Positions 39,521-64,000 of a stretch of DNA of 64,000 bases are shown here, piece by piece. Origin of the DNA: Gammaproteobacteria bacterium (GTDB lineage Bacteria > Pseudomonadota > Gammaproteobacteria > Xanthomonadales > Wenzhouxiangellaceae). The notes beneath the pieces are model-generated. The model ran no database searches. It was not told the origin of the DNA and saw only the letters and a list, made by a program, of their open reading frames with translations. The position numbers and the translations under genes are program-made. How positions within the stretch are numbered: the stretch's first letter is position 1; every line of letters begins with the position of its first letter. The stretch covers positions 124,001 to 188,000 of the forward strand of contig JAJFKX010000049.1 in assembly GCA_021772985.1 (NCBI GenBank). Reading direction: 5' to 3'.

Positions 39521-40342
39521 ATGAGCTTTGATCTTGCTGGTTCAGTGGTTGGCAATCAACACCCGTTGTTTCTGATTGCCGGCCCATGCGTGATTGAATC
39601 GGAGCAACTGGCACTGGATACTGCTGGCGTTATTCAGGAAGTTTGCCAGCAACTGGGTATGCACTGCATTTACAAATCCAGCTTTGATAAAGCCAACCGT
39701 ACTTCGCATGACAGTTTTAGAGGCCTGGGACAGGACCAAGGGTTGAGAATACTGGAAACAGTTAAGCAACAGATCGGCATTCCAATATTGACGGATGTCC
39801 ACGAAGACACTGATATCGAAGCGGTAGCCAGCGTAGTTGATATATTGCAAACGCCAGCGATGTTATGCCGACAAACCAATTTTATTGAACGTGTAGCTGC
39901 CGCCGGCAAACCGGTTAATATCAAAAAAGGCCAGTTTCTATCTCCGCAGGAGATGCGACATGTAGTGGCCAAAGCCAAAGCGGTGGGTAATCACAATATA
40001 TTGGTTTGTGAGCGTGGCTTCAGTTTTGGATACAACAATTTGGTAGCTGATATGCGCAGTCTTGAGATTCTGCGCGAAACGGGTTGCCCGGTGGTTTTTG
40101 ATGCTACTCATTCGGTCCAGCAGCCAGGTGGTCTGGATGGTCGTTCCGGCGGACAACGTCGGTATGTGCCGGTACTCGCCCGTGCGGCAGTAGCTGCCGG
40201 TGTAGCTGGATTATTTATGGAAACACACCCCAATCCGGAGTTGGCATTAAGTGATGGTCCGAACGCCTGGCCGCTATCTGAATTGAAAGCATTGCTGGCC
40301 ACTTTGCTGGCAATTGATGAGGTAGTCAAAAAAACCTTATAA
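39521..40342 (+). CDS. kdsA: 3-deoxy-8-phosphooctulonate synthase (KDO-8-P synthase)
   Basis: 273 residues. Condenses phosphoenolpyruvate with arabinose 5-phosphate to KDO 8-phosphate for the lipopolysaccharide inner core, so this organism makes LPS as well as, apparently, sphingolipids. Family blocks: [64 protein letters not shown], and [11 protein letters not shown]. It lies between pyrG and eno, the normal gammaproteobacterial order. Confidence 0.97.
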
Positions 40343-54207: not shown

Positions 54208-54933
54208 TCAGCCAATGCGCTTAAGCATTAATCGATATAAAAAAAACAACACCAGCAAATGCACGAGCATGGCCAGCAGATAGCGCAGGGCTGCAGGTAT
54301 GACGTTGGAATACAACAGTTCACCTATCCAATAACTGGGTATTATTGTGGCCAGGTATCGAAAAGCAGATGGTGCTAAGGCAATCAGTGGAATCAAGGCA
54401 GCAATATTCAAGATTTTGCTTATGGCCAGCCCTTCTACCTTATTGCCTGCCAGGGAAAGCAGAGCAAAAGTGAACATAACTGCCTGCAAGGCGACCAGCA
54501 CAGCCAAAAACAGCTTTAGCAGCAAGGGTTCATTTAACAGCGCAATTGCTATCAGCAAAGCAACAATAAAACTTAGCAATGCTGTGATGCCGGCCCGGTA
54601 AATCAAAAAACCATTTCGTCCAATAGGCGTCACTTCCAGGGCCAGCAGTGGGCCGTCATCCCGATCCTCGAGCAGTAACATGCCTGTGACCCAGCCAAGT
54701 AATATCGGAGGCATGAGTAACACAAAGCTGACGACATAATTGGAAAAGCCAGCAATATCAAATGCATTCAATGCATAGCTGTCCAATTGTGAGCGCCAAA
54801 GCCATAAAGCGGCCGGCAGTAACATAATCGTCGCCAGTGCTAAGGACATAATCGGGTCGCGGCGAATGTTGTACACATCTGCCCGGAACAACATTCGTAA
54901 GCGCGGCAGCTTTAAGAGGTTATAAGCACTCAT
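54208..54933 (-). CDS. ABC-2 type transporter permease (second permease of an exporter)
   Basis: 241 residues from ATG 54933, overlapping the stop of the preceding permease by 4 nt (ATGA); a longer upstream extension is not supported. There are about six membrane helices and few charged residues, e.g. LALATIMLLPAALWLW, FVLLMPPILLGWVTGMLLLEDRDDGPL. It resembles permeases of the fluoroquinolone-exporter type (ABC-2). With the ATPase and the other permease it forms a small exporter. It is the last gene of a long minus-strand series that begins with the sphingolipid genes. Confidence 0.85.
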   Translation of the reverse strand: MSAYNLLKLPRLRMLFRADVYNIRRDPIMSLALATIMLLPAALWLWRSQLDSYALNAFDIAGFSNYVVSFVLLMPPILLGWVTGMLLLEDRDDGPLLALEVTPIGRNGFLIYRAGITALLSFIVALLIAIALLNEPLLLKLFLAVLVALQAVMFTFALLSLAGNKVEGLAISKILNIAALIPLIALAPSAFRYLATIIPSYWIGELLYSNVIPAALRYLLAMLVHLLVLFFLYRLMLKRIG

Positions 54934-55631
54934 GGTTTCACGCCGTAGGCTCGCCGCAGTGCATTGCATCCAAGCCAGGCACCCAATATGGCGGCCAGTG
55001 ATGTGATTGCCAGCATTACCCCGATTTGCCAATCAGGCGTAGCGTTATTTGAGAAACAGATAAAAATTAATTTAAGCTGGGCTGTAGCCGGGATCAACAT
55101 GAAACCGATTGGCAAAGGTTCCAAAAAAGCCAGTACTGATGGTAAAACAACAGGCAAAAACAACCAGATTGAACCAATAATATAGCCGGTTACGGTTTTG
55201 AATCTGATACCCATTACCGCACCCAATCCTATGTAGTGAACTGAGATCAAAGTGACGGTCAATAAATACAACGGCCAACGCACTGCCTGTTGACTGGCCA
55301 TGGCCAGGAGTACTGAAGCAGCCAGGGCAATCGCAGTCAGAGTGATAATCTTGGCTGCAAGATATTCGTTCCCGGAAACAGGTGAAACTGCCAATGTCGA
55401 ATCGGTGTTTTCAGCTTTTTCAAACAGCATTAACCCGCCCAGAAAGAAAAAGCCCAGTGCTGCATAATCTGAAAACACCATCAGACCAAAAAACCAACCA
55501 GGCAGATAGGAGGCCAGATAATATAATGCTGCTGCGGTAAAGCTGATGATGACAATATAGGCAGCGATAATACGGTAGCGCCATTGCATGCGAAAATCAT
55601 GTGCAATCAGCGTGATCAGGCGATTGTTCAT
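54930..55631 (-). CDS. ABC-2 type transporter permease (first permease of an exporter)
   Basis: 233 residues with about six membrane helices (IIAAYIVIISFTAAALYYLASYLP, ALGFFFLGGLMLFEKAENTDSTLAVSPVSGNEYLAAKI). The segment LMLFEKAENTDSTLAVSPVSGNEYLAAK, between helices, occurs in such permeases. The start overlaps the ATPase stop by 4 nt and its own stop overlaps the next permease start by 4 nt. The three genes therefore make one translationally coupled exporter. Substrate unknown; proximity to spt makes a lipid a candidate. Confidence 0.85.
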   Translation of the reverse strand: MNNRLITLIAHDFRMQWRYRIIAAYIVIISFTAAALYYLASYLPGWFFGLMVFSDYAALGFFFLGGLMLFEKAENTDSTLAVSPVSGNEYLAAKIITLTAIALAASVLLAMASQQAVRWPLYLLTVTLISVHYIGLGAVMGIRFKTVTGYIIGSIWLFLPVVLPSVLAFLEPLPIGFMLIPATAQLKLIFICFSNNATPDWQIGVMLAITSLAAILGAWLGCNALRRAYGVKP

Positions 55632-56491
55632 AGGTTCTGACCAGCCACCTTGATAAAAACATCATCCAGACTGGCTTCCTGGCTGTGAATAGAAAGAATC
55701 TGTTGGCTTTTCAGGGTCTGCAGGAATTCGGTATTTGCTGCGATGTTATCCATTGCAAAGCTATGCGTGAGCTGTTGGTCATTTACCTTGACGACCACTT
55801 GCAGAACACGCTTCCCAAAACGGCGTTTTAATTCCGATGGTTGATCAATCACATCAGCCCGGCCATTGACCAGAAAGCCCACTCGGTCGCAAAGTTCGTC
55901 GGCTTCTGACATATTGTGGGTGGTCAGAAAAATTGTTTTACCTCGGCCCTTCAAGTCAGTAATCAGCCGCCGTGTGATACGCGCCCGAGCCGGATCCTGG
56001 CCGGTGGTAGGCTCATCCAGAAACAACAGTTCCGGATCGTTCAGTAATGCCCGACATAAGTTTAAGCGCATTTTCATGCCTTTGGAAAACGCTTCTACAC
56101 GCTTACCGGCATCTGCCTGTAAGCCGACCATAGCTAATACTTCTAATGGGTCCAGGGTCTTGACCGAATACAAAGAAGCAAACAGCTGCAGGTTCTCCAG
56201 AGCAGTGAGGCGTAAATATAAAGTTGGTAACTCAAAGCTGACGCCTATCCGCTCATAAAATGAACGGCCCATGCTGCCAACTGAATGGCCGAAAATATTG
56301 GCTTTGCCGGTGGACCCTGGAAGCAAACCCATCAGGATTTTCTGAGTTGTGGATTTACCTGAACCTGAGGGGCCCAGTAAGCCGAAAACCTCACCAGCAT
56401 TAATGTGAAAACTTAGCCCGTCAAGGGTTTTCTCATGATTGCCCTTATAACAAAAACTGAGTTGGGTAACATCAATCAGTCTTGTCGGCAT
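55628..56491 (-). CDS. ABC transporter ATP-binding protein
   Basis: About 287 residues from ATG 56491 (MPTRLIDVTQ); a Met three codons upstream at 56500 is also possible. Walker A GLLGPSGSGKSTTQKIL, signature FSKGMKMRLNLCRALL, Walker B LLFLDEPTTGQDP, and the switch His in FLTTHNMSEADE are all present, so it should hydrolyse ATP. The SxGM-type signature (SKGMK) is that of ABC-2 exporters. It begins about 60 nt after the spt stop on the same strand, with no terminator evident between, so it may be part of the sphingolipid transcript. Confidence 0.93.
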   Translation of the reverse strand: MPTRLIDVTQLSFCYKGNHEKTLDGLSFHINAGEVFGLLGPSGSGKSTTQKILMGLLPGSTGKANIFGHSVGSMGRSFYERIGVSFELPTLYLRLTALENLQLFASLYSVKTLDPLEVLAMVGLQADAGKRVEAFSKGMKMRLNLCRALLNDPELLFLDEPTTGQDPARARITRRLITDLKGRGKTIFLTTHNMSEADELCDRVGFLVNGRADVIDQPSELKRRFGKRVLQVVVKVNDQQLTHSFAMDNIAANTEFLQTLKSQQILSIHSQEASLDDVFIKVAGQNL

Positions 56492-56554
56492 ACGGCACAC
56501 CCCGGTTAAGTTTGTGCGAGTAGCTGCTGCCGCTCGGGATTATGACTCAATGGC

Positions 56555-57760
56555 TCAGGCTGCCTGTTGTTCCAGCATAGGAGCCAACTGTTTGAATATT
56601 TCCAGTACTTGCTCAATCTGTTGCTCAGTATGTGCAGCGCTCAGGCTGATTCTGAGTAATGGATTGCGACTGGGTGTTGCCGGTGGTAACACCAGGTTGC
56701 AATAAGCGCCACTTTCCAGCAATTGCTTCCAGAATGCCAGGGCGTTTTCTTTGCCTTTAATGGTAATGCCGATAACCGGCGATACCTCACTGGCCAGATC
56801 GTAACCGATGGCAGCTAAGCCGGCATGCAATTGCGCTGCACGGACGAACAGGTTTTCACGCAAATGTTTCCCATCGCGTAATTTGCGCAGTGTTACCCGG
56901 GTGGAGGCGATGGTTGAAGGTGTCGGTGAGGCAGTAAAGATATACGGGCGGCTAGCATAGCGAATCAAATCCAGTTCCGGGTGCTGGCTGACACAGAAAC
57001 CACCGGTAGCACCCAGACTTTTACTGAAGGTGCCGACGGTAAAATCGACCTCATCTTCACAATTTTGCAGTTGTGCAACACCGCGACCGGTGGTCCCATA
57101 TACCCCCAGTGAATGCGCTTCATCAACCAACAAGTAACCGCCATGCTCACGTTTCACAGCGGCAATTTCGTTCAACGGAGCCAAATCGCCCAGCATGCTG
57201 TACAGGCCTTCGACAATGATCAGGGCTTGGCTTGCGCGCTCACCCAGACGACGCATACGTTTGGCCAGGTCTTCCGGGTTGTTGTGTTTAAAACGGATAA
57301 CTTCAGCACCACCCAGTTTGCAGCCGTCATAAATGCTGGCGTGGCAATCAGCATCCAGCACAATGACATCACGAGAATTGCCTAATGCGGATATCACGCC
57401 CAAATTGGCCAGATAGCCGGTGGAAAATACGATGCAGTCACGTTGTCCATAAAATTCTGCAAATTCAATTTCCAATTGCCGGTGCAGGCTGAAACTGCCA
57501 TTGGCCATGCGTGAGCCGGTAGTGCCGGTGCCGAGCTGCTGGAGTGTGGTGCGCGCAGCTTCGATGGCTTCCTGGTCAAAAGTCAGGCCCAGGTAATTGT
57601 TAGTACCGACCAAAATTGTATGTCGGCCGTCTATAAGTGCTTCAGTCGGCGAAATAATATTCTGCATTGAAGTGCCGAAGGGGTCGATTCCGGCCTGGTC
57701 GAGCATCTGGCGGGCGTCGGCTATAGGTTGCAGTTTGCTGAACAGGGTATGGTTTTGCAT
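56555..57760 (-). CDS. spt: Serine palmitoyltransferase (3-ketosphinganine synthase), alpha-oxoamine synthase family
   Basis: 401 residues. PLP-dependent condensation of serine with an acyl thioester to give 3-ketosphinganine, the first committed step of sphingolipids. PLP lysine is Lys247 in TVGTFSKSLGATGG; DEAHSLGVYG holds Asp213 and His216; DADCHASIYDG has the stacking His140. By sequence alone it could be a KBL/AONS (glycine C-acetyltransferase or BioF) relative. The neighbours decide for Spt: a dedicated acyl carrier protein, a lipid hydroxylase, a CerR-like reductase and an acyl-ACP ligase, the order known from the Caulobacter ceramide locus. Cytoplasmic. Confidence 0.87.
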   Translation of the reverse strand: MQNHTLFSKLQPIADARQMLDQAGIDPFGTSMQNIISPTEALIDGRHTILVGTNNYLGLTFDQEAIEAARTTLQQLGTGTTGSRMANGSFSLHRQLEIEFAEFYGQRDCIVFSTGYLANLGVISALGNSRDVIVLDADCHASIYDGCKLGGAEVIRFKHNNPEDLAKRMRRLGERASQALIIVEGLYSMLGDLAPLNEIAAVKREHGGYLLVDEAHSLGVYGTTGRGVAQLQNCEDEVDFTVGTFSKSLGATGGFCVSQHPELDLIRYASRPYIFTASPTPSTIASTRVTLRKLRDGKHLRENLFVRAAQLHAGLAAIGYDLASEVSPVIGITIKGKENALAFWKQLLESGAYCNLVLPPATPSRNPLLRISLSAAHTEQQIEQVLEIFKQLAPMLEQQAA

Positions 57761-57802
57761 AACAGATATTTATGTCGGTAAAGGGGCGTTGCCAAAGGCG
57801 GT

Positions 57803-58048
57803 TTATGTTGAGGTGATATCCTGCAGTACTGCGATTAATTGTCCGGCAGTACGCACATCACCTAACCGGTTGACTGGAATCGAGACGTCCAATTCATCCT
57901 CAATGGCAGTGCACATTTCCAGTACCTGGACTGAGTCCAGGCTTAAATCAGCTACCAGATCAGTATCAGCCGTAATGGTTTGAATCTCCGGCTTGATCTG
58001 TTGCAGCTCGCGTTGTATCAACGCCAGTAAATCAAAGTCATTTTTCAT
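57803..58048 (-). CDS. acpR: Dedicated acyl carrier protein (AcpR-like)
   Basis: 81 residues from ATG 58048 (MKNDFDLLALIQREL), 1 nt after the stop of the hydroxylase gene; a longer upstream version is unlikely. The phosphopantetheine site is Ser39 in DLSLDSVQVLEM, the standard DSx motif. The housekeeping AcpP usually reads DSLD and sits with fabD/fabF, so this is a specialised carrier. In the Caulobacter pathway AcpR delivers the acyl chain to Spt after loading by AasR. Both partner genes lie beside it here. Confidence 0.9.
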   Translation of the reverse strand: MKNDFDLLALIQRELQQIKPEIQTITADTDLVADLSLDSVQVLEMCTAIEDELDVSIPVNRLGDVRTAGQLIAVLQDITST

Positions 58049-58049
58049 C

Positions 58050-58874
58050 TCAGACTGCCTTGCCGGTGATATCGTTATTACTGGAAATATCCTCCTGGCT
58101 GGTAACTGTTCGGACATTAATTTGTTGTTTTTCAGCCAGTTGAGCTACCCAGGGGTAGTGTTTTTTCTGCTCTTCGGTATAACCGATATTGAATACGGTT
58201 TCACTGCGTGGTACTGCTGAAGGTTCAGCCTGAAATGTGCCGGTTATCCGGTCCCAGAAAAAATTGGTAATGCCGAAATTAACATTTTCATTACGAAAAT
58301 GGTGCATCAGGTGATAGCGTTTCATGCGCTGTAACCATTTCCATTTAGGCACATATCGCAAATGCTGAATACAATGGCAGAATTCATAAAACAGTGTCGT
58401 CGCGACACCGGCAGCAAAGGCTGATGCCATACCTGCCATACCACCCAATAACCAGCCAATCGGCATGGTGACAATCATTACCGTAGGCAGCGTGGTGTAT
58501 AACGCACCGAATAAAACCCTCAGGTCATGTGGGTCTTGATGGTGTGCATAATGAATCCTTGCCCAAACCTCTGCTGTATATTTGCTCTTATACAGCTGTT
58601 GACTGTGCAATACATAACGATGCAACAAATACCAGGCAAGCGGGTATGCCAGTACCGCTGCAAGTGCCGGTAGGGCAAGCTGTGTATAGTTCTCGGCAGC
58701 CATGATCGCAGTGCTTGACGCAGCTATTGTGAGCATGATGTAAACCAGAATATCCGGATAACGAAAATAGGCAACGGTCAGGTCGCGCAAGTTCATTTGA
58801 TCCAAATGGTATTTATTGCGGCTCCAAATGGTCTCACCCGAATTTGTCGTTGTTTCGCTGGCTGAATTTGGCAT
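58050..58874 (-). CDS. Di-iron fatty acid hydroxylase/sterol desaturase-family protein
   Basis: 274 residues with about four membrane helices and the eight-His di-iron pattern: HRYVLH (85-90), HYAHH (108-112), HCIQH (167-171) and HLMHH (188-192). Members hydroxylate or desaturate membrane-embedded acyl or sphingoid chains. Its place between cerR and acpR suggests it hydroxylates the sphingoid base or the ceramide acyl chain (as fungal and plant enzymes do), but the site cannot be read from the sequence. The next gene starts 1 nt later, so they are coupled. Upstream 203 nt separate it from cerR. Confidence 0.86.
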   Translation of the reverse strand: MPNSASETTTNSGETIWSRNKYHLDQMNLRDLTVAYFRYPDILVYIMLTIAASSTAIMAAENYTQLALPALAAVLAYPLAWYLLHRYVLHSQQLYKSKYTAEVWARIHYAHHQDPHDLRVLFGALYTTLPTVMIVTMPIGWLLGGMAGMASAFAAGVATTLFYEFCHCIQHLRYVPKWKWLQRMKRYHLMHHFRNENVNFGITNFFWDRITGTFQAEPSAVPRSETVFNIGYTEEQKKHYPWVAQLAEKQQINVRTVTSQEDISSNNDITGKAV

Positions 58875-58901
58875 ACGGATAGGTCAAGTTATAAACGGAG
58901 T

Positions 58902-58919
58902 ATTTTAGCTCATTTGAGC
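58902..58919 (-). promoter_or_regulatory. Inverted repeat and -10-like element before the hydroxylase gene
   Basis: In the 203-nt gap between cerR and the hydroxylase gene, GCTCA(TT)TGAGC (58908-58919) directly precedes TAAAAT (minus strand, 58907-58902), 28 nt upstream of the hydroxylase ATG. It may be an internal promoter with an operator. The -35 region is weak, so this is a tentative call. Confidence 0.28.
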
Positions 58920-59077
58920 GTTTTTATCCCAATATCTGAAGTTGATAACAGCTGGCAATATGAAAAAGCATAGACCTGTCCGGTTATTGGCTCTTCAGTT
59001 GGACTGGTCGGGTGGTGTGAACTGGTTGCAGGGGAATAACCAGAGGTCACTGCTAAGATACTTTACGGCTTCCCGGG

Positions 59078-59995
59078 TCAGTCAAGGGGTAAGCCTCGCA
59101 GGCCTTCGATCAGCCTGGTTTGTGGCGTCCAATCAGTGGCATCAGTTAATGCTTGGCTATCAGTGGTCCAATCAGACCAACGCAGTTCACGTGCTTTGCC
59201 AGGGGTGAGTATAGGTTGATGGCCGGTAAGCTTGGCTATTTGCAGGTTAAGCCACGCTATACGTTTCAAGAGCAACTCCGGCAGCGGCAGTGTGCGGATA
59301 GTGCGGCCTGAATATTGCTGCATAATACGACATAGCTTATCCCAATTGTAATTATCCAGTTCACCGTCGTCAGGTTCAAAAACACCTGCGGACGGCGAGT
59401 TAAGCAGAGCAATTACCGCACTGGTCAAATCACTGATGTGTACCAGTGACAACCGTTGGTCAGTAGCCGTGATGCGCAATGCCCAGCCACGGTAGAGCAT
59501 CCGTAACAGCGGTAGCATTTCTTTATCACCGGGGCCATAAATTGCTGGAGGGCGAATGATTGAGCAACAAATCCGATTGCTCAGCTGGCGGCAAACTTGT
59601 TCAGCCTGATATTTGCTTTTGGCATACCAGGATAATTGTGGCTCGCGCGCCGCCAAACTTGAAATCAGAATAACCTGTTCGATATGGCTGTTTTCAACAG
59701 CTTGCAGCAAGCGCTTGGTGCCGGCGACATTGGGTTGGTAAAAATCTTGCCAGTCGGCTCCACGAACAGTTGCAGCACAATGTACCAATACCTCAACATC
59801 GTTGGCCAGCTCATTAAGGGCGGCTTGGTTTTCCAGTGCACCAGGGACTTCGATAATTCTTTTGCCAATGGGGACAGGTGAATGTTTGCCTTCGCGTATT
59901 AGCAGCTTCAGGCTATGTCCGGCTGCATGCAAGGTATGCGCCAGATGGCTACCGACAAAGCCGGTAGCCCCAGTTAATGCGATACGAAGCGGCAG
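59078..59995 (-). CDS. cerR: NAD(P)-dependent epimerase/dehydratase family, ceramide reductase CerR-like
   Basis: 305 residues if read from CTG at 59995. The extended SDR fold shows GATGFVG (residues 9-15), Ser112-Ser113, and the YxxxK pair Tyr124/Lys128 in SWYAKSKYQAE, then RPPAIYGPGDKEML. In Caulobacter the homologue reduces the 3-keto group of the (dihydro)ceramide precursor. No ATG, GTG or TTG lies between the upstream aasR stop (60004-60002) and the glycine motif; the first TTG (59932) would remove that motif. aasR and cerR are in the same frame, separated by the stop plus two codons, so CTG start after coupled termination, or readthrough, is needed. See findings. Confidence 0.82.
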   Translation of the reverse strand: MPLRIALTGATGFVGSHLAHTLHAAGHSLKLLIREGKHSPVPIGKRIIEVPGALENQAALNELANDVEVLVHCAATVRGADWQDFYQPNVAGTKRLLQAVENSHIEQVILISSLAAREPQLSWYAKSKYQAEQVCRQLSNRICCSIIRPPAIYGPGDKEMLPLLRMLYRGWALRITATDQRLSLVHISDLTSAVIALLNSPSAGVFEPDDGELDNYNWDKLCRIMQQYSGRTIRTLPLPELLLKRIAWLNLQIAKLTGHQPILTPGKARELRWSDWTTDSQALTDATDWTPQTRLIEGLRGLPLD

Positions 59996-60001
59996 CGCGG
60001 G

Positions 60002-61765
60002 TTACGCTGCGACGCGTTTAGCGGACGACTTGTCAACCACCCGTTTGATATCGAGGCGCTGCAAGTAGTCTTTTTTGGCGCCCGAGCGTGACAGCTTGCC
60101 TGAGGAAGTGCGCGGTAACGTGTGCGGCGGAACCAGGTCTATTCGACAATCAATACCCATTTCTGCCTGTACGCTGGCACGCAGTCGCTCAGCCAGGTCA
60201 CGTCTGACGGCGGGGTCTGCCTGACGGCATTGAACCACCATCACAGCAACTTCCTGACCTTCATCATCGGTGACGGAAAACGCAGAAGCATCTTCAGGGC
60301 GCACTTCGGGCTGACACTCTGCCAGAAATTCCAGGTCCTGTGGCCAAATGTTTCGACCGTTGATGATAATCATGTCCTTCTGGCGGCCGGTGATGATGAT
60401 TTCACCATCAACCAGGTAACCCATGTCACCGGTATTAAGCCAACCATCTTCAGATAATACTTCAGCAGTGATTTCAGGTTCGTTGAAATAACCGCTCATC
60501 ACGCTGGGGCCGCGTACGAAAATTGTTCCGCATTGTTTTTCAGGCACGACATCACCATCGGTATCCCGGATTTCCATGTCCAGGTCTGGAATGGATTTGC
60601 CGCAACGAACGAAACGGTTAACGCGGCGATCCTCAATCATTGGATCTACCGTAACTGCTATGCCTTCGTGACCAAGCCGATCAGCATCTACATATTCGAT
60701 ATGCACGTCACGCTCCAACGGCGCAAAGCTGATCGCCAGTGAAGTTTCAGCCATGCCATAACAAGCCAGGAATGCACGCCGGTCAAAACCAGCTTCTTGT
60801 AATGCATTGGCGAAATTGCTCAGGCTGCTGGGGCGGATGGTCTCTGCGCCGACACCGGCAACACGCCAGGCGGAAAGGTCCAGCCGTTCCAGATCAGAAG
60901 GGCGTACCCGGCGGGCACACAATTCATAGCCAAATGGTGGGCTGAAAGATACAGTTCCACCGGTTTCCGACATCAGGTTGAGCCATAAGCGTGGGCGCAT
61001 GGCAAAATCACGGGTGCCGATGTAGTCAACTGAGCGTTGTGAGGCCATTGGTGCCAGCACCAGGCCGACCAGGCCCATATCATGGTAGTAAGGCAGCCAT
61101 GAGACGCAGCGGTCGTTCTCATTCATTTCCTGACCATGCTGCAGGATGCCATTCAGATTATGCATCACCGCTTTTTGCTTGATCATCACACCGCGTGGAA
61201 AGCGGGTGCTGCCGGAAGTGTATTGCAAATAGGCCAGTTCATGAGCACCCAGTGGTTCCAGGGGCTGACTGTTTTGCGACTGTTGATCAAAATACTCAGC
61301 GCCGCCTACGTGTTGCACCGGCAGGCCTTCACAGGCGGTCTCCAGCATTTCCAGATAATCAGCAGGCGCCATGGCCAGCTCTGGTTTTGCGCTTTGAATC
61401 AGTTTGCGCAACTGCTGAATATAGGCTTCACGCCCGCCAAGGTGGACTGCTGCAGGTACTGGAACTGGAACTATGCCGGCAAATTGGCAGGCATAAAAAA
61501 AGCGGACAAAATCTGGGCAGGTTTCAGCAACCAATACCATCCGGCTGCCACGCTCAACGCCTAGATCAACCAGCCGTGAAGCCAGTTCCTGTGCTTGAGC
61601 GTACAACTCGGAGTACGGCAGCTTACAATACAGCTGACCACGTCCGTTGTAGAAGTTATAGCCGGTCTCGCCCCTGCTGGCGTACTCAAGTGCAGCTGCC
61701 AGAGTCGGGAAGCGGGCGGCGCATAATGGCAATGAGTGTGTTGTCGGTGTGCCGTTGTTAGCCAA
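60002..61765 (-). CDS. aasR: Fatty-acyl-AMP ligase / acyl-ACP synthetase (AasR-like)
   Basis: 587 residues of the adenylate-forming (ANL/FAAL) family: the AMP-binding core YLQYTSGSTRFPRGVMI near 180-195, LPYYHDMGLVG, the YGMAETSLAISF block, GRQKDMIIINGRNIWPQDLE, and the C-terminal lysine in SSGKLSRSG. It activates a free fatty acid to acyl-AMP and would load it onto the adjacent acyl carrier protein. Start is TTG 61765 with AGGGAG 9 nt upstream. It is the first gene of the minus-strand sphingolipid unit. The same frame continues past its TAA into cerR. Confidence 0.87.
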   Translation of the reverse strand: MANNGTPTTHSLPLCAARFPTLAAALEYASRGETGYNFYNGRGQLYCKLPYSELYAQAQELASRLVDLGVERGSRMVLVAETCPDFVRFFYACQFAGIVPVPVPAAVHLGGREAYIQQLRKLIQSAKPELAMAPADYLEMLETACEGLPVQHVGGAEYFDQQSQNSQPLEPLGAHELAYLQYTSGSTRFPRGVMIKQKAVMHNLNGILQHGQEMNENDRCVSWLPYYHDMGLVGLVLAPMASQRSVDYIGTRDFAMRPRLWLNLMSETGGTVSFSPPFGYELCARRVRPSDLERLDLSAWRVAGVGAETIRPSSLSNFANALQEAGFDRRAFLACYGMAETSLAISFAPLERDVHIEYVDADRLGHEGIAVTVDPMIEDRRVNRFVRCGKSIPDLDMEIRDTDGDVVPEKQCGTIFVRGPSVMSGYFNEPEITAEVLSEDGWLNTGDMGYLVDGEIIITGRQKDMIIINGRNIWPQDLEFLAECQPEVRPEDASAFSVTDDEGQEVAVMVVQCRQADPAVRRDLAERLRASVQAEMGIDCRIDLVPPHTLPRTSSGKLSRSGAKKDYLQRLDIKRVVDKSSAKRVAA

Positions 61766-62268
61766 AACTAGCGTCTCCCTGAAATCTCTATATGGACAGC
61801 GCGTTTATCGAGTGCTATCAGATTAATGCTTTCATCAAGGTTAGGCATGCATAAATCCTATTTTAAATTGGTTATCCATTACACATTCAAACCCGCAAAG
61901 TTTAGCAGTTGCGGTGCTTCTCAGCACCCGCACAAAACTAGCCGGCGAGACTGGTTGTCGGCAAAATGGCCTTCGGGTAGGCATATTGCCTCGCCGGATG
62001 CGCATAAATAAATTTGCTATTTTCTCTGCTAAGCTGATGCGTTGCAAGCATTTCTGACAATTTTACTACAGAGTGGGTAGATTTGTTGCTCAAATACAAC
62101 GTTACAGTGCTGGTTTACATGTGAATAGATGAGATTAAATAAAATTTGCGTTAAAAAAACAATCCCATAGGTATAATTTGTTGGGGATATGTTTGTGGTA
62201 AAAATACAACAATGGCGTTAACCACGCATACTGTAGGGATTGCTGAAAGAACTTGATAGATTGAAGAA
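61766..62268. other. Divergent intergenic region between the two sphingolipid transcripts
   Basis: About 500 bases without a supported gene, lying between the start codons of aasR (minus) and the N-acyltransferase gene (plus). It must hold the control signals of both. I see a TATAAT at 62172-62177 and AT-rich DNA near 62100-62200. A 68-codon frame on the minus strand (61841-62047) has no ribosome site and looks spurious. Confidence 0.7.
62146..62177 (+). promoter_or_regulatory. Candidate promoter for the N-acyltransferase gene
   Basis: A perfect -10 box TATAAT at 62172-62177, with TTGCGT (62146-62151) upstream at an overlong 20-nt spacing. Transcription would start near 62184 and leave an ~85-nt leader before the ATG at 62269. 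The -35 is weak. Confidence 0.35.
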
Positions 62269-63408
62269 ATGATAAAAACTAAACCAAACAATCAGCAGCT
62301 GACGTTAAAACCTGTGATATCGCGCGGCGATCGTCAACACTTTATGCGCTTGCCGCAACAACTATATGCTGACGATGATCATTATGTACAACCATTGAAT
62401 CAGGAGTTGAATCATGTTCTGTGTGGGCGCAATGCCTGGTCAAAGCACGCAGAACTGCAGGCATGGCTGGCTTGGCGCGGAAATCAGCTAGTGGGTCGAA
62501 TCAGCGCGCAAAGAGATCAGTTGCACACTGACCCGCAAATTGGCCAATTCGGTTTTTTGGAAGCAATTGATGATGCTGATGTGTTCAAGGCGCTACTGGA
62601 TACAGCAGCAAAATGGTTATCCAGCCGAGGTGCGACAAGCTTACAAGGCCCATTTGACCCTTCGATCAATGCGCAGACTGGTTTGCTGATCGATGGTTTT
62701 GATACACCTCCATATATAATGATGGGACATGCTCCCAGCTATTACCAGACACGCTACCTGGAATATGGACTGCAGCCCGTCCAGGAGTTGCTGGCCTACA
62801 TCATGGATATACGCTTTGTGGTACCAAAGGTCATGAACCGTTTGGCGCGCCAATATCGTTCTAAATTCCGAATCAGGCAACCGGATTGGTCTCAGCGAGC
62901 ACAGGAAATGGAAACCATGCGCAATATTTTTAACGATGCATGGCAAGATAACTGGGGCTTCGTACCCTACAGCAAAGCTGAGTTTCAGGAATTAGGCAAA
63001 AATTTGAAAATGCTGATCAAACCGGGTTGGGCCCATATCGTTGAGTATGAGGATCGTCCCATTGCCTTTATTGTGTTGTTGCCCAACATCAACAGCATAA
63101 TCCAGGATTTGCGTGGCAAATTGTTTCCGTTTGGCATTTTGAAGTTGTTATGGCGTCTGAAGTTTCAGAAAATTAAAACAGGTCGTGTTCCATTGATGGG
63201 GGTGCTGAGAGAGTTTCATGGCACTCCGTTGGCTGGCGCAGTGTCATTTTTGATGATCGAACAACTACAGATATACAGTGTGTCATCAGGGGTGACTCAT
63301 GCGGAACTCTCTTGGATATTAAAGGACAACAAAGGTATGCGCGATATTCTCGAGGCAATTTCCGGATACCCTTATAAGCGCTATCACGTCTATGCTAAAG
63401 ACATTTGA
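62269..63408 (+). CDS. GNAT-like N-acyltransferase, candidate bacterial ceramide synthase (bCerS)
   Basis: 379 residues. The layout LKPVISRGDRQHFMRLP, then LQAWLAWRGNQLVGRISAQRDQ and GFLEAIDDADVFKALLDTAAKWLSSRGATSLQGPFDPSINAQTGLLIDGF marks the GNAT-fold family to which Caulobacter bCerS belongs. A second GNAT half contains FVPYSKAEFQELGKNLKMLIKPGW and IAFIVLLPN. In that model it N-acylates 3-ketosphinganine. It is divergent from the other four ceramide genes, an arrangement that keeps all five structural genes within 7 kb. A general acetyltransferase function is the alternative. An LptF/G-type permease gene follows by 33 nt. Confidence 0.8.
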   Translation: MIKTKPNNQQLTLKPVISRGDRQHFMRLPQQLYADDDHYVQPLNQELNHVLCGRNAWSKHAELQAWLAWRGNQLVGRISAQRDQLHTDPQIGQFGFLEAIDDADVFKALLDTAAKWLSSRGATSLQGPFDPSINAQTGLLIDGFDTPPYIMMGHAPSYYQTRYLEYGLQPVQELLAYIMDIRFVVPKVMNRLARQYRSKFRIRQPDWSQRAQEMETMRNIFNDAWQDNWGFVPYSKAEFQELGKNLKMLIKPGWAHIVEYEDRPIAFIVLLPNINSIIQDLRGKLFPFGILKLLWRLKFQKIKTGRVPLMGVLREFHGTPLAGAVSFLMIEQLQIYSVSSGVTHAELSWILKDNKGMRDILEAISGYPYKRYHVYAKDI

Positions 63409-63441
63409 CCATTACCAGAATTTACCGGCAGAACCAATGGC

Positions 63442-64000
63442 ATGATCCTTAGACGATATGTATTAAGCGCGGTCATGCGTCCTTTTCTGGGAACTCTGGT
63501 GTTCCTGGTGGCCATTTATGGAGCCTGGGCCGCGAGCAAATTGATTAGTGCTGGTGGCGCAGTATCAATGACGCCCAGCGAGTTTTTTACGGTAATCGGA
63601 TTACAGACTCAGGTAGCGCTGGAAGTATTGGTGCCATTTTCATTATTTTTAGCCATCATTACTGGATTGGGTCAACTGGCTGCAACCCAGGAGGCTCTGG
63701 CCATTCGGGCTAACGGCGGTGGTGACAAGATGTTATTCAGCAGCGTGGCCGGGGTTGGCCTGCTGATAACACTGATCATCGGCGTGGAATCGCTTTGGCT
63801 CCGTCCGCAGGCTTATGAGCATATTTACACGATCAGCACGGCGATTGACCAGGACATCGATTTCAGCCGGATTGAAGGTGGGAAGTTTTATATCAGCCAA
63901 GCGAGCCAAAATGATCAGGGAGGACGAGTGATCTTTGCTGATCGGCGTGAGGACGACACCTTGTATCAGGTTTTTGTGGCACACACTGTGAATGGCCGCA
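63442..64000 (+). CDS. LptF/LptG-family permease (3' truncated by the window)
   Basis: The first ~186 residues are present and the frame runs off the right edge. It begins MILRRYVLSAVMRPFLG, with a hydrophobic helix FLGTLVFLVAIYGAWAASKLI, then VPFSLFLAIITGLGQLAATQEALAIRANG, the characteristic YjgP/YjgQ block, and a periplasmic beta-jellyroll beginning LWLRPQAYEHIY. LptF and LptG extract LPS from the inner membrane for export. This copy could be the housekeeping lptF. Its place right after the candidate ceramide synthase gene, 33 nt on, suggests instead a paralogue that moves sphingolipids. Confidence 0.85.
   Translation, partial: MILRRYVLSAVMRPFLGTLVFLVAIYGAWAASKLISAGGAVSMTPSEFFTVIGLQTQVALEVLVPFSLFLAIITGLGQLAATQEALAIRANGGGDKMLFSSVAGVGLLITLIIGVESLWLRPQAYEHIYTISTAIDQDIDFSRIEGGKFYISQASQNDQGGRVIFADRREDDTLYQVFVAHTVNGR

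Follow-up and report, generated by a model that had tools for sequence, protein, structure and literature searches.

Ceramide gene set in the window

The DNA analyzed here, hereafter the window, is a stretch of 64,000 nucleotides (contig JAJFKX010000049.1 of assembly GCA_021772985.1, positions 124,001 to 188,000) from a gammaproteobacterium of the family Wenzhouxiangellaceae. Judging from sequence relationships, it carries a complete proteobacterial-type set of the five genes for ceramide synthesis, spt, acpR, cerR, aasR and bcerS. A preliminary description of this DNA had placed these genes at positions 56555-63408 and within 7 kb; all five are indeed found there, with 6.85 kb from spt to bcerS. 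Its gene list was incomplete, however, as it left out a hydroxylase gene (58050-58874) in the interval between cerR and acpR. The genes of this region are as follows.

56555..57760, minus strand: spt, serine palmitoyltransferase (NCBIfam equivalog NF047599, 601.3 bits, cut-off 500; tree; Lys247)
57803..58048, minus strand, frame open to 58117: acpR, specialised acyl carrier protein, 81 aa form (PF00550, E 2e-9)
58050..58874, minus strand: FA2H/Scs7-like fatty acid (ceramide) hydroxylase (PF04116, 73.9 bits; Scs7 match; His pattern)
59078..59995, minus strand: cerR, ceramide reductase of the short-chain dehydrogenase/reductase type, probable CTG start (PF01370; 37% identity to ECD_RS14835 of E. 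coli BL21)
60002..61765, minus strand: aasR, acyl-AcpR synthetase, TTG start (NF006624, 795 bits, cut-off 600; 47% identity to BL21)
62269..63408, plus strand: bcerS, bacterial ceramide synthase, a YghO-like N-acyltransferase (44% identity to BL21 YghO)

Spt exceeds the cut-off of the serine palmitoyltransferase equivalog and stays under that of the BioF equivalog (327.5 bits, cut-off 426). Compared with solved structures, it matches Sphingomonas Spt (2jg2) with 417 bits and Sphingobacterium Spt with 270 bits, while KBL and BioF score at most 196 bits. An assignment of spt as BioF, Kbl or 5-aminolevulinate synthase was rejected, as the equivalog scores, the structure bit scores and the tree described below all speak against it. 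The E. coli BL21(DE3) counterparts share 53% (Spt), 36% (AcpR), 37% (CerR), 47% (AasR) and 44% (bCerS/YghO) identity with the window proteins, and bCerS had no Pfam or NCBIfam family match at E 0.001. Because Spt and AasR score at equivalog level and the proteins are 36-53% identical to those of BL21, the five-gene locus is not a chance assembly. The diagnostic residues named in the preliminary description are all present, namely Lys247 of Spt (within TFSKSLG), GATGFVG and YAKSK in CerR and YTSGSTRFPRG in AasR, and the carrier Ser39 of AcpR fits the residue count when the 81-residue form is taken to begin at 58048. Its reading of the locus as one for sphingolipid synthesis is likewise supported by the Spt tree and the alignment to YghO, the candidate bCerS of BL21.

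acpR directly precedes spt, with a gap of 42 bp. The place given earlier for cerR holds, with the qualification that the start at 59995 is a CTG codon. ATG, GTG and TTG are all absent between the aasR stop and the GATGFVG motif, and a CTG is found at the same aligned position in the window genome (59993-60004, minus strand) and in a genus mate (locus L030, upstream of 7883), so that CerR may start at CTG. Since the probable start is none of the three codons ATG, GTG and TTG, the listed cerR frame begins at 59932. Promoter-like and terminator-like sites showed no clear excess over shuffled sequences (15 versus a mean of 12.5, sd 3.9, and 8 versus 11.3, respectively).

An FA2H/Scs7-like hydroxylase between cerR and acpR

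The hydroxylase gene encodes 274 residues, and its stop lies 1 bp ahead of acpR. Among solved structures, a single relative was found, yeast Scs7 (4zr1), a ceramide very-long-chain fatty acid hydroxylase, which is matched with E 3.8e-13 by the single sequence and with E 6.9e-36 by a profile of seven proteins (A1). Ten histidines are invariant in this profile and form, in order, the motifs HX4H, HX2HH, HX3H and HX2HH, which the single-sequence alignment places on those of Scs7. The three best Foldseek matches of an AlphaFold model of middling confidence are also Scs7 (TM scores 0.48-0.49, best E 1.7e-3). The protein was also considered as an ordinary sterol-desaturase paralogue; the three other PF04116 genes of the genome all lack the four-part His pattern. 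Based on these relationships, the enzyme probably adds a hydroxyl group to a ceramide-type lipid.

PF04116 is a common family, present in 236 of the 370 genomes sampled from the class. The hydroxylase query matches ten of these genomes at E 1e-8, four of which have Spt (P 0.002). In 52 Spt-bearing genomes we found 71 PF04116 matches, distributed over 34 genomes; six of the 71 lie within 8 kb of spt, versus 0.44 expected within 10 kb, where the distance was picked after inspection and broken contigs can conceal links. The six represent four lineages, i.e., the genus of the window (two genomes), g49 (two genomes), G152 and G401, and they are the sole matches among the 71 that score 50-83 bits. 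The four-part His pattern was present in every linked protein examined, seven in all with the addition of one from L035, a contig of a metagenome-assembled genome (MAG), and in none of the 32 unlinked PF04116 proteins examined out of 65 unlinked matches. A survey of 72,556 plasmid records returned 13 with a match to the hydroxylase, comprising eleven from Roseomonas, one from Sphingomonas and a weak one from Bacillus. In the one Roseomonas stretch examined, that of Roseomonas mucosa, the hydroxylase gene overlaps bcerS.

Head-group and transport genes beyond bcerS

The preliminary description let the locus end at bCerS, yet it extends about 4 kb beyond the window; coordinates past 64000 equal positions in stretch L009 plus 62000.

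63442..64536, plus strand, with the window ending at 64000: lptF2, second LptF (PF03739)
64543-65613, outside the window: lptG2 (PF03739)
65627-66562 (L009 3627-4562), outside the window: cpgC-like gene, 311 residues, Tam41 fold (predicted fold)
66819-67928 (L009 4819-5928), outside the window: ceramide-kinase-like gene, DAGK_cat (PF00781, 47 bits)

These neighboring genes probably build the lipid head group and carry the lipid to the outer membrane. The LptF2/LptG2 pair matches PF03739 with 168 and 225 bits and is one of two LptF/LptG pairs in the genome, the other being located on contig 46. Of the 26 ceramide stretches mapped, 22 carry genes for both LptF and LptG.

The 311-residue protein had no Pfam match. 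A profile built from it and six homologues (A2) matches Tam41 (6ig2) at E 6e-4; PF09139 is matched by five of the seven members at E <=0.5 (best 4.5e-6), and one homologue, L145, reaches 43 bits (cut-off 24). A structural model (pLDDT 82.6) was aligned by Foldseek to Tam41 with TM scores of 0.48-0.50 (best E 2.6e-7). Z scores were 18.7 (7ecd) and 15.9 (6ig4), with 8.4 for the next unrelated chain, in a comparison that covers the structures in Foldseek's match list, so that families beyond this list may also fit. In the class sample, PF09139 (E <=0.001; four over the cut-off) occurs in six of 370 genomes, and five of these six belong to the 24 Spt-bearing ones (P 4e-6); in four cases the match is no more than about 12 kb away from spt. 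Homologues of the CpgC-like protein were found in 17 plasmid records, 13 of them from Roseomonas.

Gene order provides a further link. In R. mucosa the genes follow each other as acpR, spt, hypothetical, CpgC-like, kinase, CDP-alcohol transferase, phosphoesterase, DUF2141, HIT, LptF, LptG, hydroxylase, bCerS and NTP transferase. This matches the order from CC_1162 to CC_1153 described for Caulobacter (PMC11324152), so that the 311-residue protein corresponds by order to CpgC (CC_1161). A CDP-diacylglycerol-synthase InterPro domain has been noted in CC_1161 and an NDP-activated ceramide proposed (PMC11324152); the mechanism of CpgC has been called unidentified (PMC12275187). The predicted Tam41 fold supports the idea of CDP or NDP activation for a CpgC-type protein.

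The kinase shares 26% identity with Roseomonas and Pseudomonas kinases and has the GGDG motif; a related gene is present in 27 of the 43 genomes of the family, many of the matches being just 24-30% identical. CpgB- and CpgC-like genes of the CPG2 pathway are present as judged against Roseomonas and Pseudomonas proteins. Homologues of CpgA, CpgD, CC_1153 and CC_1158 were not found at E 0.001 in the 104 kb examined, which comprise the window, L009 and L010, the rest of the genome not having been searched, so that a single-head-group CPG-type lipid is likelier than CPG2 unless such genes lie elsewhere. About 0.9 kb past the kinase, a gene for a TauD-family dioxygenase (L009 6865-7848, minus strand) is oriented convergently and is probably unrelated; it and the arginine-deiminase genes (together L009 6865-9490) were set aside, as they look unrelated to the locus.

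ABC transporter genes behind spt and lipopolysaccharide

Three genes for an ATP-binding cassette (ABC) transporter, an ATPase and two permeases, lie behind spt in the same direction.

54208..54933, minus strand: ABC-2 type permease (PF12730 below cut-off; overlaps the next gene by 4 bases)
54930..55631, minus strand: ABC permease, FLQE3 family (PF24686, 70.8 bits, cut-off 60)
55628..56500, minus strand: ABC transporter ATPase (PF00005, 95.8 bits; 54 bp from spt)

Among the stretches mapped, this trio occurs in the genus of the window only (genus mate L030/L082); the spt regions of sister genera lack it. A longer ABC-like protein occurs in 11 of the 26 mapped stretches, exemplified by L095 with ABC_membrane and ABC_tran domains. 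Since the gene-family grouping of the 26 stretches merged shadow frames, only Pfam-checked unnamed families were used. The trio may constitute an inner-membrane lipid flippase. The earlier statement that the organism also makes lipopolysaccharide (LPS) agrees with the genes, since kdsA (39521-40342) passes two Kdo8P-synthase equivalogs and the genome encodes the two LptF/LptG pairs.

Phylogeny and distribution of Spt

A gene tree, proposed in the preliminary description as a check, groups the window Spt with that of E. coli BL21 and away from BioF and Kbl. The two belong to a clade of 26 proteobacterial Spt proteins (support 100/100), from which E. coli BioF and Kbl are separated with support 99/96. 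The tree has 37 rows, which were selected from 40 loci and include neither Caulobacter nor Bacteroides proteins; four of seven paralogue loci of the window genome had no match and were dropped. Several branches carry long-branch flags, chiefly BioF-side ones and that of the R. mucosa Spt. The Spt of the genus mate L030 is 91% identical to that of the window.

The family holds two Spt lineages. Those of genera g1, g3 and g4 form one clade, and those of g2 and g7, with one representative each, group with an Spt encoded on a Diaphorobacter plasmid, a pattern that would fit replacement of the original spt in some members of the family. A further set of near-identical Spt proteins comes from MAGs labelled Gemmatimonadetes (L040) and Gammaproteobacteria (L041, L045), with a CpgC-like gene nearby according to profile matches; either recent transfer or mislabelled bins would account for this.

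At E <=1e-80, Spt is present in 29 of the 43 genomes of the family and in 24 of the 370 sampled from the class. A bCerS match was found in 32 of the 43, including all 29 with Spt, the one in G006 being weak (25% identity). As Spt and bCerS are this widespread in the family, the ceramide locus is ordinary for the group. Ceramide loci also occur on plasmids typed as conjugative, in Pseudomonas BYT-5 and Diaphorobacter JS3051 (L152, L155), and the pathway may therefore move between proteobacteria by plasmid.

Proposed pathway and alternatives

Building on the observed gene content, sequence relationships, histidine motif, predicted folds and linkage, we infer the activities, the hydroxylated carbon, the head group and the transport as follows. 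The region is very probably a complete sphingolipid locus of the Caulobacter/E. coli B type with a hydroxylation step of its own. AasR would load a fatty acid onto AcpR, Spt would join acyl-AcpR and serine, and bCerS would add the N-acyl chain before CerR reduces the 3-keto group, an order argued for Caulobacter (PMC11087976). Our confidence in acyl-AcpR formation, condensation, N-acylation and reduction is high, given the relationship to experimentally tested genes. The FA2H/Scs7-like enzyme would place a hydroxyl on the amide-linked acyl chain, with C2 as the likeliest position, and the CpgB-like kinase would form ceramide 1-phosphate; for both steps, confidence is moderate. The CpgC-like protein with its Tam41 fold may activate ceramide 1-phosphate with CTP, giving CDP-ceramide, or otherwise attach the first head group, with moderate to low confidence in CDP activation. 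A dedicated LptF2/LptG2 pair would help move the anionic sphingolipid into the outer membrane beside LPS, an export route proposed in PMC11324152. Our best reading is that the cell makes a hydroxylated, phosphorylated and CDP-activated ceramide and exports an anionic sphingolipid beside LPS.

Two alternatives concern the substrate of the hydroxylase. An action on C4 of the sphingoid base, yielding phytoceramide as does yeast Sur2, would suit the position of the gene beside acpR and cerR, i.e., the long-chain-base side of the pathway, and PF04116 also includes base hydroxylases. Yet the His pattern of the window enzyme opens with HX4H as in Scs7, whereas Sur2 has HX3H; the unlinked PF04116 proteins examined in Spt-bearing genomes (32 of 65) all lack the four-part pattern, and in Roseomonas and g49 the gene adjoins bcerS, on the N-acyl side. 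We consider base hydroxylation decidedly unlikely. The same adjacency to bcerS, not acpR, argues against a role in acyl supply, in which a free fatty acid or acyl-AcpR would be hydroxylated before Spt or bCerS acts; such a role fits the 1 bp between hydroxylase and acpR genes in the window genome and the description of mammalian FA2H as acting on free fatty acids (PMC3107802), and we regard it as conceivable, if rather improbable.

A different challenge concerns the product of the five genes, which could be another alpha-oxoamine compound such as a capnine-like sulfonolipid or a 1-deoxy-sphingoid lipid instead of ceramide. Some members of the wider enzyme family use amino acids other than serine, and a cysteate-C-fatty-acyltransferase (28eh, 155 bits) is among the PDB matches of Spt. 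Spt is, however, far closer to the Sphingomonas enzyme (417 bits), scores above the Spt equivalog cut-off and lies within the clade of BL21 Spt, and bCerS- and CerR-like genes are present, which makes this a most improbable outcome.

Several observations weigh against the proposed hydroxylation and head-group steps. Concerning the hydroxylase, no match at E 1e-8 was found in 20 of the 24 genomes of the class sample that encode Spt, and in the family a strong match was found in two of 43 genomes (two of the 29 with Spt) and a third at E 9e-6; being absent from most Spt-bearing genomes of family and class, it is an accessory component. Six genomes in which no Spt was detected also encode hydroxylases with the His pattern, and on a Sphingomonas plasmid the gene for a close relative does not adjoin ceramide genes. 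The position of the gene varies, being before acpR in the window and before bcerS in g49, and the proteins of G152, G401 and L035 are only 21-24% identical to that of the window. The model is of middling confidence (pLDDT 68.5). FA2H and Scs7 carry an N-terminal cytochrome b5 domain; none was found in the window protein, in which PF04116 was the only match at E 0.001, and we therefore call it FA2H-like and not FA2H. Concerning the CpgC-like protein, that of the window genome itself has no PF09139 match, nor was PF09139 matched elsewhere in this genome or in 14 control genomes including Caulobacter, so that its identity as CpgC rests on gene order and homologues.

Novelty and implications

The preliminary description was right in its reading and not in the novelty it implied. 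Sphingolipid loci are already on record in the gammaproteobacteria E. coli B, Azotobacter vinelandii and Pseudomonas luteola: the five genes were reported in E. coli BL21, Nitrosomonas eutropha and alphaproteobacteria, with AcpR, AasR and SPT of E. coli and Caulobacter tested experimentally (PMC9386255), and A. vinelandii and P. luteola have contiguous clusters with at least 13 orthologues of a 17-gene Caulobacter region (PMC11324152). A claim to the first gammaproteobacterial sphingolipid locus was accordingly set aside. What is new here is the FA2H-like hydroxylase in a putative ceramide operon and the predicted fold of a CpgC-type protein. The best-ranked matches in open-licence PubMed Central included no FA2H-like gene in a proteobacterial ceramide locus, and nothing connecting Tam41 with bacterial ceramide was found in that literature, in which a search on Nitrosomonas likewise listed nothing.

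Oxygenases of other kinds also occur near ceramide genes, such as a P450 and an FA_desaturase on Diaphorobacter plasmid pDCB2 and an Asp/Asn hydroxylase in Pseudomonas BYT-5. Sphingomonas is reported to use a P450, and some myxobacteria have FA2H-like enzymes that were reported to be functional (PMC10002949). That enzymes as unrelated as FA2H-like, DesA-type and P450 oxygenases are found with ceramide genes suggests, from few loci and no survey, that hydroxylation was added to bacterial ceramide several times. We put forward tentatively, with somewhat more doubt than conviction, the combined idea that CpgC is a Tam41-fold CTP:ceramide-1-phosphate cytidylyltransferase making CDP-ceramide and that proteobacterial ceramide loci repeatedly recruit unrelated hydroxylating oxygenases. 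CDP-ceramide, if it is formed, would be to sphingolipids what CDP-diacylglycerol is to glycerolipids, an activated form.

The association of an FA2H-like hydroxylase with a putative ceramide operon in a bacterium offers testable chemistry. For anionic bacterial sphingolipids, the predicted fold of the CpgC-type protein points to a way in which the first head group could be attached, a step that has been called unidentified (PMC12275187). In Caulobacter, anionic sphingolipids allow cells to live when LPS is absent and determine how they respond to polymyxin (PMC12275187, PMC11324152), and therefore the hydroxylation and head-group steps would bear on outer-membrane stability and antibiotic response.

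Comparison with known systems

The closest counterpart in gene content and layout is the yghO-aasR-cerR-acpR-spt locus of E. coli BL21(DE3) (ECD_02850-02854), which has the same five genes at 36-53% identity and the same divergent arrangement, with bcerS pointing one way and aasR-cerR-acpR-spt the other. LptF and LptG genes also adjoin there (29-30% identity), but on the spt side, and no hydroxylase, CpgC-like or ceramide-kinase-like gene was found in a 40 kb stretch. Caulobacter crescentus (CC_1152-CC_1168) shares, by description, the five genes, the kinase (CpgB), CpgC by order and LptF2/LptG2; hydroxylation has been ascribed to the unlinked DesA-type CC_0202 (PMC11324152), whereas the hydroxylase gene of the window lies in the putative operon. 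Plasmid p1-AD2 of Roseomonas mucosa shares the hydroxylase (46% identity), the CpgC-like protein, the kinase, LptF/G, bCerS, acpR and spt and additionally has CpgA-, NTP-transferase- and phosphoesterase-like genes; the stretch examined carries no annotation for aasR or cerR.

Outside bacterial ceramide loci, the hydroxylase resembles yeast Scs7/FA2H in its His pattern (that of Scs7) and differs from it in having no detected cytochrome b5 domain and in being encoded inside a putative proteobacterial ceramide operon. The CpgC-like protein has the same predicted fold as the CDP-diacylglycerol synthase Tam41 at about 15% identity. Unlike Tam41, its gene adjoins ceramide genes, and its expected substrate would be ceramide 1-phosphate.

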